64,000 nt of DNA, taken from positions 558,001 to 622,000 of the forward strand of contig NZ_CP018092.1 of NCBI RefSeq assembly GCF_002754935.1, in the 5' to 3' direction. This stretch comes from Thermostichus lividus PCC 6715. GTDB taxonomy: Bacteria; Cyanobacteriota; Cyanobacteriia; Thermosynechococcales; Thermosynechococcaceae. A program made the translations under genes and the position numbers. The notes beneath the pieces were generated by a model. It was not told the origin of the DNA. It was given only the letters and a program-made list of their open reading frames with translations, and searched no databases. Of the stretch, positions 15,486 through 64,000 are shown piece after piece; positions within the stretch are counted from its first letter, which is position 1, and every line of letters begins with the position of its first letter.

Positions 15486-16775
15486 CTACGCAACGGGCTG
15501 AAGCCGCGTTGCTTCGCTTTTCCCTTGAGCTGTCACCCACAACTTAATACGGGTGGGGGCAGTCAAAGACCCCCTACCAACTCCGCTCAGACTCAATCCA
15601 AGCATCGTCGCTACTTTACGCAGGATGTTGGCAGCGCCATTACAATCCGCGTTGATGTACCAATTCTGAGCAGTCCTGAACAAGCCTCGCTTCGTCCGCT
15701 TCCCCGATGACTTCCAGCTATCAGGTTTTTCACCGAATGTCGGCAAAAAGTCACCATCCACAAACGATGCTTGAGAGGTATACGACTCCTCAGTTTCAAC
15801 AAACTCTATCCCGTACTGCTCCGCTAATTGAGCAATCCGCTCTTTCAGTCTCGCAGTTGGGATCTGCACAAACTTCTGATTGGTCTTCTTGCCTAGGTTG
15901 GAACCGTCCTTTTGCTGCTGGTTCCAGCCAAATACAATCCGACCAATCCGGTTACGGGTGCAATGGTCAATCACAATCCTAGCCGCTTTGTTCACTGCAT
16001 CACGTATCTGCCGATTGCGCTTCTCAGTGAGTTGTGCCAGTCGCTTTGACCAAAAGCCTTGAGGCTTACCTTCTTTCAGCTTGGCAATTTGCTTGTTGTA
16101 CCAGCGGTTCAACGATTTCAGGTGCAGTCCATCCACAATGAAGCTGGTTCCCACATTGCTGACGCAGGTGAGCCAGTTGTTTAATCCCGAATCGATGCCC
16201 AGCACCCGCATCGGGTCTACATCAATCTGAACGGGGTTCAGACGATAGACAAACTCAGCGTAGAAACACCCATTGCGCGGCAGAATCCGCAGTTCCTTGA
16301 TGTCCTCAAATTTGAGATTGGAGGGCATGGGGACAGTGAACGAATCAATCTGAAACCACACTTTCACTAACTGCCCCAGCGGAACCCGGATCATCCCATC
16401 AACCAACTTCAGCGCTTGTTTGGGATAGCTGACTACTGCCAACCCTCCCTTCTTGCGGTAATTTGGCATCCTGGGTTTCTCTGCCAGTTCTCCACCTCGC
16501 CACAGTTTCAACAATGCTCGGTAGGACTTAAACGACTCGTAGACCGAAATCAAGGTTTGCTGTGCAGCCTGGGAGTAAAGAGCTTGGAAGTGCTTACTGG
16601 TCTTGTATTCGTAACTCAGGCTATGCTTGCCAATCCACTGCCCGGTCTTAAAGTGCAGTTGACGAGCATAGTAGATGCCCTGATTGGTTAGCTTGTTTGC
16701 CTCAGAGCAGACAAATTCCATCACCCCCTTAAGTTCGTTATTGGGGTTGAGCAAAACTTGCTGACATCCAAACAT
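15486..16775 (-). CDS. tnpB: TnpB RNA-guided nuclease, zinc-finger-less type
   Basis: Starting at MFGCQQVLLNPNNELKG (ATG at 16773-16775) the protein has 429 residues. The RuvC-like acidic residues sit in VLGIDSGLNNW (D), VETEESYTSQASF (E) and YINADCNGAANILR (D). The region between the last two lacks the CxxC pairs of the usual zinc ribbon and instead reads DGDFLPTFGEKPD, as in the IS1341-like subgroup. The last 28 or so codons (SLTAPTRIKLWVTAQGKSEA...) lie in the part conserved with the non-coding copy B, that is, probably inside the guide-RNA scaffold. Biochemically unproven here. Confidence 0.88.
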   Translation of the reverse strand: MFGCQQVLLNPNNELKGVMEFVCSEANKLTNQGIYYARQLHFKTGQWIGKHSLSYEYKTSKHFQALYSQAAQQTLISVYESFKSYRALLKLWRGGELAEKPRMPNYRKKGGLAVVSYPKQALKLVDGMIRVPLGQLVKVWFQIDSFTVPMPSNLKFEDIKELRILPRNGCFYAEFVYRLNPVQIDVDPMRVLGIDSGLNNWLTCVSNVGTSFIVDGLHLKSLNRWYNKQIAKLKEGKPQGFWSKRLAQLTEKRNRQIRDAVNKAARIVIDHCTRNRIGRIVFGWNQQQKDGSNLGKKTNQKFVQIPTARLKERIAQLAEQYGIEFVETEESYTSQASFVDGDFLPTFGEKPDSWKSSGKRTKRGLFRTAQNWYINADCNGAANILRKVATMLGLSLSGVGRGSLTAPTRIKLWVTAQGKSEATRLQPVA

Positions 16776-16829
16776 GGTGAGTTTATGCGACAATTGTCTA
16801 CAGCGTAGCACAGATAGACAAACAGGTAA

Positions 16830-17022
16830 ACTATGGACTACCAGAAAAGCCGCAGTGCATCGAATTAAGGGGCGAACTGCACAGTTCCTCAGACAGGAAT
16901 TCCCTAATCCATTAATGAAACTGCCGTCCATGTGGACATCCAGTTACTTTGTCTCAACGGCTGGCAATGTTAGCAGCGAAACAATTCAGCGCTACATTGA
17001 AGCTCAGGGCAAGAGTAATTGA
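16830..17022 (+). pseudogene. tnpA: Truncated tnpA of copy A
   Basis: The C-terminal segment of a Y1 (HUH) transposase is readable: TAQFLRQEFP, LPSMWTSSYFVSTAGNVSSE, and TIQRYIEAQGKSN before the stop. The N-terminal half with the HUH pair is missing; upstream sequence runs straight into the divergent tnpB start. So the element retains tnpB but not a working transposase. Confidence 0.75.
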
Positions 17023-26110: not shown

Positions 26111-26153
26111 GTAGCTTAAGATACAGTTTCCACAGATAACGCCCCCTTAACCT
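26111..26153 (+). promoter_or_regulatory. NtcA-activated promoter of the urt operon
   Basis: A perfect NtcA box GTA-N8-TAC (GTAGCTTAAGATAC, 26111-26124) is followed after 23 bases by a -10 element of form TAN3T (TAACCT, 26148-26153). This is the canonical class II NtcA arrangement, in which the box replaces the -35. It predicts induction of urtABCDE under nitrogen limitation. Confidence 0.85.
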
Positions 26154-26194: not shown

Positions 26195-27505
26195 ATGGCT
26201 CAACAATTTGGACTTGGACGACGTAAATTTATTGTGTATGGCTCCGCCGCCTTGGGAACGAGCCTACTGATCAAAGGCTGCGCTCCAGCCACAGACACCG
26301 GTGGTGGTGGCACAACAGCAGGCAGTGGTGAGACGATTAAAGTCGGCATTTTGCACTCCCTCAGTGGCACCATGGCCATCAGCGAAAAAAGCGTCGTGGA
26401 TGCCACCCAGCTAGCCATCGATGAAATTAACAGTGCTGGCGGTGTCCTCGGTAAACAGATTGAGCCTATTCTTGAAGACGGTGCCTCCGACTGGCCGACC
26501 TTTGCCGAAAAAGCCACAAAACTGATCGATCAAGATAACGTTGTTGTTGTCTTTGGCTGTTGGACCTCTGCCTCCCGCAAAGCTGTGCTGCCAGTGTTTG
26601 AGGCTAAAAATCATATGCTCTGGTACCCCGTGCAATATGAAGGTCAAGAATGCTCTAAAAATATTTTCTATACGGGGGCAGCCCCTAACCAGCAAATTGA
26701 ACCTGCCGTAGATTGGTTGCTGGAAAATAAAGGGAAAAAATTCTTTTTGGTCGGCTCTGACTACGTCTTCCCCCGCACCGCCAATACTATTATTAAGGCG
26801 CAACTCGCGGCCAAAGGTGGGGAAACGGTCGGTGAAGACTATCTGCCCCTTGGCAGCATCGAGGTCACCCCCATTATTACCAAGATTCGCTCTGCTCTCC
26901 CCGATGGCGGTGTTATTTTTAACACCCTGAACGGCGATAGTAACGTTGCCTTCTTCAAACAACTGCAGGGGGCGGGGTTAACTCCCGATAAATACCCCAC
27001 CATGTCGGTAAGTATTGCTGAAGAAGAAGTTCAAGCCATTGGTGTGGAGTACCTCAAGGGGCACTACGCTGCTTGGAATTACTTCATGACCGTTGATACG
27101 CCCCAAAACAAAACCTTTGTGGAGGCCTTCAAAGCAAAATTTGGCCAAAATCGCGTTACCAACGACCCCATGGAGTCTGCCTATATTGGGGTTAACCTGT
27201 GGAAGCAAGCAGTGGAGCAGGCGGGAACCGCTGATGATCTCGAAAAAGTGCGCCAAGCTGCCATTGGCCAAGCCTTTGATGCACCCCAAGGCCCGGTGAA
27301 GATGTTCCCTAATCACCATATTTCGCAAACGGTGCGCATTGGAGAAGTGGGCGACGATGGCCTCTTTAAGATTGTTTATGCCACCCCACAGCCAGTGGAT
27401 CCGCTGCCGTGGAACCAGTTCGTGGCTGAAACCAAAGGCTTTACCTGCGACTGGACCCGCACTGATGTAGAGAATCCCGGCCAATTCCGGATGGAAGGGT
27501 CATAA
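26195..27505 (+). CDS. urtA: Urea ABC transporter substrate-binding lipoprotein UrtA
   Basis: The protein has a twin-arginine-like and lipobox leader ([26 protein letters not shown], with the lipidated Cys expected in IKGC) and a low-complexity Gly/Thr spacer. The type I periplasmic binding fold of the amide-urea subfamily follows, with [39 protein letters not shown] and [20 protein letters not shown]. At 436 residues it is full length. It captures urea for UrtBC and lies downstream of an NtcA promoter as first gene of urtABCDE. Confidence 0.96.
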
Positions 27506-48819: not shown

Positions 48820-48862
48820 GTAGCCTGCGATACAAAAAACGGTGAAGTCAACTTTCTACCAT
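48820..48862 (+). promoter_or_regulatory. NtcA-activated promoter of glnA
   Basis: A perfect GTA-N8-TAC box (GTAGCCTGCGATAC, 48820-48833) is followed after 23 bases by TACCAT (48857-48862), a TAN3T -10 element. This exactly matches the consensus for class II NtcA promoters and predicts activation at high 2-oxoglutarate (low nitrogen). Confidence 0.88.
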
Positions 48863-48907: not shown

Positions 48908-50323
48908 ATGGCAACGCCCCAAGAAATCCTTGATTTGATCAACAGCAAGTACGAGTTAATCGACTTGAAATTTATTGACATGCCCGGAACATGGCAACAC
49001 TTGACCGTTCACAAGAGCCAATTAAATGAAAGCTCGTTTAGCGATGGTGTTGCCTTTGACGGCTCCAGCATTCGCGGTTGGAAAGCCATCAACGAATCCG
49101 ACATGATGATGGTGCCCGATCCTGAGACAGCGTGGGAAGATCCCTTCATGAAAGAACCCACCCTCAGCATGATCTGCACTATTAAAGACCCTCGCACTGG
49201 TGAACTCTACGATCGCTGTCCCCGCTCCATTGCCACCCGTGCCATTGAATACCTAAAAGCCACTGGCATTGGCGATACGGCATTCTTTGGGCCAGAAGCT
49301 GAGTTTTTCGTCTTTGATGATGTTCGCTACGACCAAAATCAAAAATCGGGCTACTACTATATTGATAGCGCTGAAGGTCTTTGGAACACTGGCCGTGAAG
49401 AAGACGGTGGCAACCTTGGCTACAAAATCCGCGGCAAAGAAGGGTATTTCCCCGTTGCGCCAACGGATACCCTCCAAGACTTGCGTACGGAAATGCTCTT
49501 AACGATGGCCAAATGTGGGGTACCCATTGAAAAACACCACCACGAAGTGGCAACGGGGGGTCAGTGCGAGTTGGGTCTGCGCTTTGGCACCCTTATTCAA
49601 GCAGCAGACTGGCTGATGACCTATAAGTATTGTGTCAAGAACGTGGCGCGCAAGCACGGTAAAGTGGCTACCTTCATGCCCAAGCCAGTGTTCAATGACA
49701 ATGGCTCCGGCATGCACACCCACCAATCGATTTGGAAAGATGGTCAGCCGCTCTTTTGGGGCGATGGCTATGCCAACCTCAGCCAAACCGCTCTTTGGTA
49801 CATTGGTGGTATTCTTAAGCATGCCCCAGCGCTGTTGGCCTTCACCAACCCGACGACTAACTCCTACAAGCGTCTAGTGCCGGGGTTTGAAGCACCGGTG
49901 AACTTAGCCTACTCCCAAGGCAACCGCTCCGCGTCTGTGCGGATTCCGCTGACCGGCACAAACCCGAAAGCAAAGCGCTTAGAGTTTCGCTGCCCCGATG
50001 CCACCAGTAACCCCTACTTAGCCTTTGCCGCCATGCTGTGTGCAGGGATTGACGGTATTAAAAATCAAATTGATCCTGGTAGCCCGCTGGATGTCGATAT
50101 CTACGACCTCAGCCCTGAAGAGCTGGCCAAAATTCCCTCTACCCCTGGTTCTTTGATGGCAGCGCTAGAAAATCTGCAAAAGGATCATAGCTTCTTGACC
50201 GCTGGTGGGGTCTTTAGCGAAGACTTTATCCTCAACTGGATTCAGTACAAACTCGACACCGAAGTGATTCCGATGTCACTGCGTCCCCATCCCTACGAGT
50301 TTGCCCTTTACTTCGATGCCTAG
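48908..50323 (+). CDS. glnA: Glutamine synthetase type I
   Basis: The 471-residue enzyme forms glutamine from glutamate, ammonia and ATP as a dodecamer. It shows [70 protein letters not shown] and [15 protein letters not shown] Tyr sits in the adenylylation-loop position ([10 protein letters not shown]), but cyanobacterial GS is controlled mainly by the inactivating factors IF7 and IF17; a gifB gene lies at 62244. A GGAG ribosome binding site precedes the ATG and an NtcA promoter lies upstream. Confidence 0.98.
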
Positions 50324-61343: not shown

Positions 61344-61781
61344 AGGAGTGATGTGGGCGGGCTAAAACCCCTCCGCTTTAGCGAGGGGATACAGCCAACT
61401 CAGGGGGCTTTAGCCCTCTCTATGTGTTAAACTAGAGACGTGGAAAGTAGGCGTATCAACTACGCGAAGAAACATCCTAGTACGGAGAAATCCCGGCAAG
61501 TAAGTCACTACCGCTTTGGCGGCAAGCCTAAACCACTGCAAGCAATGGCAGGATGTTGAGCGTATCGAATTGGCTAGTGTTGAAAAGCGCGAAACCACGA
61601 ACCGAAACATAAACGTAGTCCCAATAGCAGAAATGCTTGAGGTGAGTAGGGGGTCTTTGACTGCCCCCACCCGCATTAAGTTGTGGGTGACAGCTCAAGG
61701 GAAAAGCGAAGCAACGCGGCTTCAGCCCGTTGCGTAGCATCCTTTGGGAATCCCCTCTCTTTCAAGGAGGGGAGAAGTCAA
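61344..61781 (+). mobile_element. Copy B: 438-base non-autonomous derivative of the tnpB element at 15442
   Basis: Preceded by TTTAT (61339-61343), the left end with its two hairpins matches copy A through GGGGGCTTTAGCCC. The last 140 bases, from TAGGGGGTCTTTGACTG to GTCAA, match copy A with only about two differences by eye. The middle 200 bases hold a different, decayed tnpB-like tail (VERIELASVEKRETTNRN...). The element therefore keeps both ends and the RE-proximal region expected to encode the guide-RNA scaffold, but no enzyme. Confidence 0.82.
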
Positions 61782-62028: not shown

Positions 62029-62067
62029 TAAAGTTTTGTGAACAACTTGCGTTAAGGTGGAGAAATT

Positions 62068-62081
62068 GTTAAATTAGATAC
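62068..62081 (+). promoter_or_regulatory. Possible NtcA repressor site at the gifB promoter
   Basis: GTTAAATTAGATAC matches the NtcA box GTA-N8-TAC at five of six conserved positions (GTT for GTA). It overlaps the probable -10 region (TAAATT or TAGATA at 62070-62080). NtcA is known to repress gif genes in other cyanobacteria, where the site overlaps the promoter. Confidence 0.45.
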
Positions 62082-62090
62082 AGAAATGAA

Positions 62091-62205
62091 TCGTTCATCT
62101 CTCTCAGGACATCAGTAAAACGCGTTTAAGACGTTAGTGACTCGTCAGCGTTGTTCCTGTAGTCAGAGACGGAAGTAGGGAAAGTGATCCCGAAGGAACG
62201 CGCCT
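62091..62205 (+). promoter_or_regulatory. Glutamine riboswitch (glnA RNA motif type) in the gifB leader
   Basis: The conserved blocks of the glnA/Downstream-peptide RNA class are present in order: CGTTCATC (62092-62099), GGAAGTAGG (62171-62179) and CGAAGGAACGCGCC (62191-62204), with a variable hairpin between the first two. It ends about 40 bases before the gifB start. This class binds L-glutamine and, for gifB in Synechocystis, turns expression on when glutamine is high. Confidence 0.88.
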
Positions 62206-62243
62206 CAAATGATCCACCTTGTAATAAAAATGGGGCGACAACT

Positions 62244-62687
62244 ATGACTACTCTTACCTATCGCGGCGTTCAGTACAACTACGTTCCTCCTGCGATCAAC
62301 ACACAAGCCACGGATGTGGTGGCCAAATATCGCGGCACTACCTACCGTGTGGCCACAGCAGTGAATCCACCGGAAGACTCGCTGAAAATCATGACCTATC
62401 GCGGTGTTAAGTACCAAAAAGGCAAAAAATTGGCGGGAGTGCCGGCAGCACGGATGGCCGATACAACGGTGTCTGTAGCGATGCCTTCAGGTATTAATGA
62501 AATGGCACGTTCATTGGCAATGGCTCATCACGCTACCATCAAAAGCCGTGAGCAAACCCTGTTGGCACGGACTGCTGCTGCTATTGGTATGCCCGCCACT
62601 GCCGCCAACTACTGGAGCCAAATTCAAGGCAAAATCAATCCTGTATTTGGTGCCACCTACGATCGCTCCCACGTTGCCCTTAGCTAG
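62244..62687 (+). CDS. gifB: Glutamine synthetase inactivating factor IF17 (DUF4278 N-terminal domain)
   Basis: Starting MTTLTYRGVQYNYVPP, the 147-residue protein has three YRG repeats of the DUF4278 type (LTYRGVQY, AKYRGTTY, MTYRGVKY) and then a C-terminal module MAHHATIKSREQTLLARTAA, YWSQIQGKINP and TYDRSHVALS. That module is the homologue of IF7 (GifA), the basic helical peptide that binds and inactivates type I glutamine synthetase. Its combination with the riboswitch leader makes the call firm. The target GlnA is encoded at 48908. No gifA was seen in the window. Confidence 0.92.
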   Translation: MTTLTYRGVQYNYVPPAINTQATDVVAKYRGTTYRVATAVNPPEDSLKIMTYRGVKYQKGKKLAGVPAARMADTTVSVAMPSGINEMARSLAMAHHATIKSREQTLLARTAAAIGMPATAANYWSQIQGKINPVFGATYDRSHVALS

Positions 62688-63474: not shown

Positions 63475-64000
63475 CTACGGACAGAGCGCGGGCTTTCGGT
63501 AGCCCTGCAGTTGGCACGCCAACCACGCTCCGTAGGTGGCGTCAGCCATACCTCTAGGCTGGTTTACAGGCAGCTCCAAAAGCGCAATTAGATTCGCACC
63601 GTTAAAGTCAGCCTCCCCCTGCCAACCGCAATGGCCACAAGTAAACCCCTTGCCACTTCGATAAGACTTGCCTTGCACTGGATGAATGTGCAGGCATTGG
63701 TGACAGATTTGCGAGGTATATACCGGATTAACCGCAAGCACCTGAACGCCTGCCTGAAGTGCCTTATAGGCGATAAACAAACGCAATTGAAAGAATGCCC
63801 AACCACTAGAGCTGCGTCGCTCGGTCTTGTTGCGCGGCAGCTTGTTGGTGCATTCTCTGATACCTGTCAAATCTTCCACAGCAATTACAGCATTCAAGGC
63901 GTTAGCCCGCTGCACAATCGCTTTGCTGATTTGATGGTTCAACCATTGCTGATAACGGCGATTTTTACCCGACAACCGTTCCAAACTCTGTCTTGCCCTG
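63475..64000 (-). CDS. tnpB: TnpB RNA-guided nuclease, zinc-ribbon type (partial, N-terminus outside window)
   Basis: The C-terminal 175 residues of a TnpB are present: the RuvC Glu in VIAVEDLTGIRE, the zinc ribbon VYTSQICHQCLHIH and FTCGHCGWQGEADFNGANLIALL with the last catalytic Asp. The frame is open through the right edge of the window. Downstream (63440-63474), a CGCTC-GAGCG hairpin and GGGTAGTTTACC form a likely right end. It differs clearly from the zinc-finger-less TnpB at 15486 and represents a second TnpB lineage. Confidence 0.9.
   Translation of the reverse strand, partial: RARQSLERLSGKNRRYQQWLNHQISKAIVQRANALNAVIAVEDLTGIRECTNKLPRNKTERRSSSGWAFFQLRLFIAYKALQAGVQVLAVNPVYTSQICHQCLHIHPVQGKSYRSGKGFTCGHCGWQGEADFNGANLIALLELPVNQPRGMADATYGAWLACQLQGYRKPALCP

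Follow-up and report, generated by a model that had tools for sequence, protein, structure and literature searches.

A gifB-like gene of Thermosynechococcus probably controlled by an NtcA-type promoter box and a glutamine riboswitch

Introduction

Is the gifB-like gene at the end of the analyzed DNA subject to two layers of nitrogen control, one acting at its promoter and one in its leader, and is glnA in the same DNA driven the opposite way? The window, i.e., the whole 64,000-nt stretch that was analyzed (G000:C1:558001-622000), is part of the 2.66-Mb complete genome of Thermostichus lividus PCC 6715. In Synechocystis, NtcA repression of gifB, its glutamine-ON riboswitch and the activation of glnA have been shown experimentally (reviewed in PMC6316151; see also PMC11288750).

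Results

The open reading frame at 62244-62687 (forward strand) encodes a protein of 147 amino acids. An N-terminal DUF4278 domain (PF14105; residues 2-57, 62247-62414, 60.4 bits) was followed by a C-terminal IF7 domain (IF7A, NF052599; residues 84-147, 62493-62684), whose score of 81.9 bits exceeded the curated cut-off of 70. This domain fusion indicated an IF17-type glutamine synthetase (GS) inactivating factor, as the sequence-only reading had proposed. The protein could be aligned with the IF17- and IF7-like proteins of a genome with a Synechocystis-type gene pair (G090), and R89, R102, and R109 were invariant in the alignment (n = 5 sequences). We take these residues to be the equivalents of the critical arginines of Synechocystis IF7. 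Three arginines were found to be critical in that protein (PMC6316151). The window gene was intact in 11/11 Thermosynechococcus genomes. In one strain of the genus, the IF17 reading frame (L030, G027) contained an in-frame 27-nt tandem duplication, by which AHYWNQIQG occurs twice inside the IF7 domain. Sequence searches yielded no solved structure of IF7 or IF17, and a search of genome contigs with the window protein returned near relatives only.

IS200/IS605-type TnpB sequences were observed at three places. In addition to a full-length open reading frame (481 aa, 15486-16931), the window contained a C-terminal TnpB fragment near its end (63475-63984; guided_TnpB, 109.7 bits) and, approximately 300 bp upstream of gifB, a 3′ remnant encoding the same C-terminal peptide (61400-61740).

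In the leader of the gene, a cmscan match to RF01739 was detected at 62090-62204 on the forward strand (51.5 bits, E = 2.1e-8; gathering threshold, 35 bits), which spanned 53/53 model positions and thus corresponded to a full-length type-1 glutamine riboswitch. The RF01739 alignment placed P1 at 62092-62096 with 62196-62200, the J2/3 junction CGGAAGUA at 62170-62177 and P3 at 62178-62181 with 62188-62191, while the P2 arm (62098-62169) consisted of a UCUCU/AGAGA base followed by an insertion of 59 nt relative to the Rfam model. All glutamine contacts of the crystallized aptamer (C1, G2, G22, G23, C58, G59, and C60; residues and numbering from PMC6698751 and PMC11477058) were found in the aligned window sequence. 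Among 48 relatives, P1 and the riboswitch core were invariant, while P2 and P3 varied with pairing kept. From its sequence, 62090-62204 is a glutamine riboswitch for which glutamine binding is predicted. The riboswitch had been anticipated at this place, with coordinates of 62091-62205 that the Rfam match corrects. From aptamer start to junction, the P2 arm measured 74-76 nt in 10/11 genus orthologs and 61 nt in L030. Only one of its pairs had changed on both sides among 10 orthologs, so that its length is kept and its detailed fold is a prediction.

Immediately 3′ of P1, a putative anti-Shine-Dalgarno strand (CGCCTCA, 62201-62207) was complementary to the Shine-Dalgarno (SD) region TGGGGCG (62231-62237), just before the start codon. 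In 47 leaders, 89% of cells were paired in this helix, vs. 40-53% when the partner was slid by 1-3 columns; covariation in the same leaders was not above that of shuffles. Both the RNAalifold consensus of ten orthologs and the centroid structure of the window leader contained the helix, which some minimum-energy folds lacked. Single-strand folding of the window leader showed no stability excess over shuffles (z +1.47). In the leader of the second IF17 gene of this genome (locus L001; see below), blocking of the anti-SD strand cost nothing in a minimum-energy model, though the pairing bases were present. No terminator-like element was found on the forward strand between aptamer and start codon. 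In the crystal structure, binding of glutamine inserts G23 into P1, where it pairs with C60 (PMC11477058; contacts in PMC6698751). In the alignment, C60 coincided with 62201, with which the anti-SD strand begins; ligand binding and SD sequestration would therefore compete at least for this base. Such competition fits a translational ON switch, as which glutamine riboswitches have been described (PMC6698751; PMC11288750). The window riboswitch is probably a switch of this type, in which ligand binding may open the SD helix by way of the one shared base.

The sequence GTTAAATTAGATAC was present at 62068-62081 (forward strand) and forms an NtcA-type box, GTT-AAATTAGA-TAC, with a degenerate left and a canonical right half-site. 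In the window, the loose GTW-N8-TAC pattern was at chance level (30 found vs. 29.8 expected), for which reason the box could not stand alone without comparative data. Upstream regions were therefore surveyed for 78 riboswitch loci, 48 from the order to which the window belongs and 30 from a sample of the class, which dereplication at 70% identity over 60 nt upstream reduced to 42. In the interval from 33 to 20 nt upstream of the aptamer, 75/78 cyanobacterial loci (0.4 expected) and 39 of the 42 dereplicated ones had a GTW-N8-TAC box, at a distance of 22-32 nt; dinucleotide shuffles gave a mean of 0.25 and a maximum of 3. The left half-site was canonical (GTAN8TAC) in 40 of the 75 boxes and GTT in 35. 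As all boxes outside the order had GTA, GTT represents a deviation within the lineage of the window, which makes the earlier term "degenerate" apt.

Conservation extended beyond the box. Its right half-site continued as TACAGAAA (62079-62086, forward strand), in which TACA was invariant and followed by G in 38/39 dereplicated loci; as TACAGAA, this half-site was nearly invariant across riboswitch loci. In the 2.66-Mb genome, GTW-N6-GATACAGAAA occurred at three sites, one before each of three DUF4278 genes, and the reversed-pattern control at none. The wider GTWN8TACAGAA showed no genome-wide excess over its reversed control (6 vs. 11), so that only the longer form is distinctive in the genome. 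In promoters of gifA across the class (L066-L095), the NtcA box was embedded in an extended palindrome, TTCTGTA-N8-TACAGAA. Since the gifA site lies elsewhere relative to the -10 than that of gifB (PMC6316151), the shared TACAGAA flank indicated that the gifB box is not merely a conserved -10. Whether AGAAA, which is conserved behind the box, constitutes a separate element was also considered. This option was rejected and AGAAA was reassigned to the extended NtcA half-site, because the flank is palindromic in gifA and recurs at the third DUF4278 gene, which has no riboswitch. NtcA itself is encoded in the genome (TIGR03697, 394.6 bits, G000:C1:1119263-1119841).

The likely promoter of the window gene overlaps the box. 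The site through which NtcA represses gifB in Synechocystis lies at -7.5 (PMC6316151). A box centered at the same position would place the transcription start of the window gene at approximately 62082 and its -10 hexamer, TAAATT, at 62070-62075 (forward strand), inside the box, as the sequence-only reading had it. A -35-like hexamer, TTGCGT (62047-62052, forward strand), lies 17 nt before this -10 and is a weak match to TTGACA; a consensus promoter scanner did not report the TTGCGT/TAAATT promoter. Overlap of an NtcA box with the -10 implies that the gene would be repressed by NtcA, whose affinity could be low with GTT instead of GTA as left half-site. In all GTT boxes, the base that spoils this half-site was the first T of the -10 hexamer, and 35/35 fitted TANNNT in the -10 register. 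This sequence pattern suggests a trade-off between the NtcA half-site and the -10.

Type I GS, the main enzyme of ammonium assimilation and presumably what the inactivating factor acts on, is encoded in the same window by glnA (48908-50323, forward strand; 471 aa), whose sequence was read directly. A canonical NtcA box, GTAGCCTGCGATAC, was found upstream of glnA at 48820-48833 (forward strand), 23 nt before the -10 TACCAT (48857-48862). A distance of about 23 nt between NtcA box and -10 is typical of NtcA-activated promoters (class II geometry). The earlier prediction that glnA is driven oppositely to gifB was thus supported by an activator-type box. Another canonical NtcA box, GTAGCTTAAGATAC, was present at 26111-26124, just upstream of a gene for a urea-type ABC transporter binding protein (26195-27505).

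Two IF7-domain genes were detected in the genome, both long and IF17-like, and a stand-alone IF7 gene was not found in it. The presence of two IF17 homologs has already been noted for T. elongatus (PMC6316151). The second copy, at L001, has its own riboswitch (RF01739, 54.2 bits), by which the brake would be doubled, and shares an identical 21-nt stretch, TGTTAAATTAGATACAGAAAT, with the window copy. On the IF7 model, the window copy scored 83.5 and the L001 copy 92.0 bits. The P2 arm, from aptamer start to junction, was 42-47 nt in L001-type riboswitches, vs. 74-76 nt (61 nt in one strain) in those of the window type, across 11/11 genus members. The L001 copy lies directly downstream of a gene for a CRP-family regulator (the pair occupies L001 1013-1462 and 1706-2344, reverse strand), which was closest to PtrA at 177.5 bits, below the cut-off of 300, and matched NtcA more weakly.

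Several other DUF4278 genes were observed. The third one in this genome (L056 1297-1725, reverse strand; genome 1180831-1180998) is preceded by GTATAATAAGATACAGAAA, an NtcA box over a perfect TATAAT. It has neither a glutamine riboswitch nor an IF7 domain, and its leader seems to fold into a hairpin of another kind. Eight riboswitch-controlled DUF4278 proteins at other loci (L015, L017, L018, L019, L022, L026, L027, and L042) also lacked an IF7 domain; they shared a C-terminal motif like KVHNTFIRQTLEHRLAVAKRKGDQGLIQMLEQEQHQLN and always had a GTA box. Five further riboswitch-controlled proteins (L003, L004, L028, L011, and L047) were only 40-74 aa long and had no more than 1-3 YRG repeats; the NtcA-type box was missing at L003 and L004.

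Discussion

We consider it very likely that the window locus represents, in Thermosynechococcus, the gifB brake already known, in which an NtcA-repressed promoter and a glutamine ON riboswitch control an IF17 protein. Judged by its domains and conserved arginines, this protein would inactivate type I GS by binding. Transcription would start at approximately 62082, from a -10 inside the NtcA box. Under nitrogen shortage, with 2-oxoglutarate at a high level, NtcA may fill the gifB box and block RNA polymerase, while its upstream box would activate glnA; site position and conservation point to this NtcA step. The mRNA would begin with the glutamine-I aptamer. Without glutamine, 62201-62207 would pair with 62231-62237 and translation would be low. 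With glutamine, the long-range G23-C60 pair would capture 62201, stabilize P1 and compete with the sequestering helix, thereby freeing the ribosome site. For this switch step, the helix is conserved and the competition is suggested by the published crystal structure. IF17 would then be made mainly at low 2-oxoglutarate and high glutamine. The second IF17 gene lies elsewhere, shares the box and is preceded by a riboswitch of its own, in which the P2 arm is shorter; its role is probably equivalent. The initial reading stated that IF17 is made only when both conditions hold. Its logic stands, as the elements are conserved and the mechanism has been shown for Synechocystis gifB; "only when both" claims too much, because the sequence gives no evidence on how leaky the control is.

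Chance frequency of the bare pattern, the degenerate left half-site and the TANNNT fit of 35/35 GTT boxes would also be expected if GTT-N8-TAC were only a conserved -10, with NtcA inactive at this promoter and the riboswitch as sole control. Such an arrangement appears quite unlikely in view of the perfect GTAN8TAC that relatives have at this position (40/75), the repression of Synechocystis gifB by NtcA from its -7.5 site (PMC6316151) and the nearly invariant TACAGAA, which lies downstream of the -10 and recurs in the gifA palindrome TTCTGTA-N8-TACAGAA. Repression by NtcA therefore remains the preferred interpretation of the box. For the leader, the weak covariation of the SD helix would agree with a riboswitch that acts through transcription attenuation or mRNA stability instead of ribosome-site exposure. 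We regard this as very improbable: forward-strand sequence from aptamer to start codon held no terminator-like element, anti-SD/SD complementarity was in register across 47 leaders, and the class has been described as translational ON switches (PMC6698751; PMC11288750).

The existence of two paralogs and the lower IF7-model score of the window copy (83.5 vs. 92.0 bits) raise the question whether this copy has diverged and lost GS inactivation, with the L001 copy doing the work. An intact gene in 11/11 Thermosynechococcus genomes, a score above the curated cut-off, retention of the critical arginines and an invariant riboswitch core make such a loss, if anything, slightly less probable still than control by attenuation or mRNA stability. 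An active brake of the gifB type is thus preferred for the window locus. A more speculative extension, to which we attach rather little weight, is that Thermosynechococcus replaced IF7 and IF17 by two IF17 copies whose riboswitches, differing in the P2 arm, could each switch at a different glutamine level and thereby grade the brake. In the same speculative view, replacement of A by T in the NtcA half-site, from which the first T of the -10 arises, may have given this lineage a stronger promoter at the expense of repressor binding.

Across riboswitch-bearing cyanobacterial gif genes, the two-layer GS control of Synechocystis emerges as a nearly universal promoter-plus-leader unit. With the window locus, this unit is placed in a thermophile, and thermophile proteins and RNAs lend themselves to structural studies. 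Two specific points can be tested: one base belongs to both the NtcA half-site and the -10, and base 62201 would belong to both the ligand pocket and the helix that covers the ribosome site. The class-wide box, the GTT variant that coincides with the T of the -10 and the two riboswitch-bearing IF17 paralogs are apparently undescribed.

As Synechocystis gifB is already known to be under the two-layer brake, the window locus most likely represents a new instance of it, a well-preserved copy of that circuit and no new kind of system. Its aptamer matched 53/53 positions of the glutamine-I riboswitch (glnA RNA motif, RF01739) and differs from it by the 59-nt insertion in the P2 arm. With cyanobacterial gifA (IF7) promoters it has the extended half-site TACAGAA in common, whereas gifA genes have neither DUF4278 nor riboswitch and show a fuller palindrome, TTCTGTA-N8-TACAGAA, than the window gene. 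Synechocystis gifB (IF17) shares the aptamer class and the DUF4278-IF7 architecture with the window gene, for which an NtcA-type box over the core promoter and an inversely regulated glnA are predicted as well. The window locus differs from it in a left half-site of GTT instead of GTA and in a P2 arm that is about 50 nt longer, and its genome differs from the Synechocystis gene set in that IF17 is present twice and a separate IF7 gene was not found.
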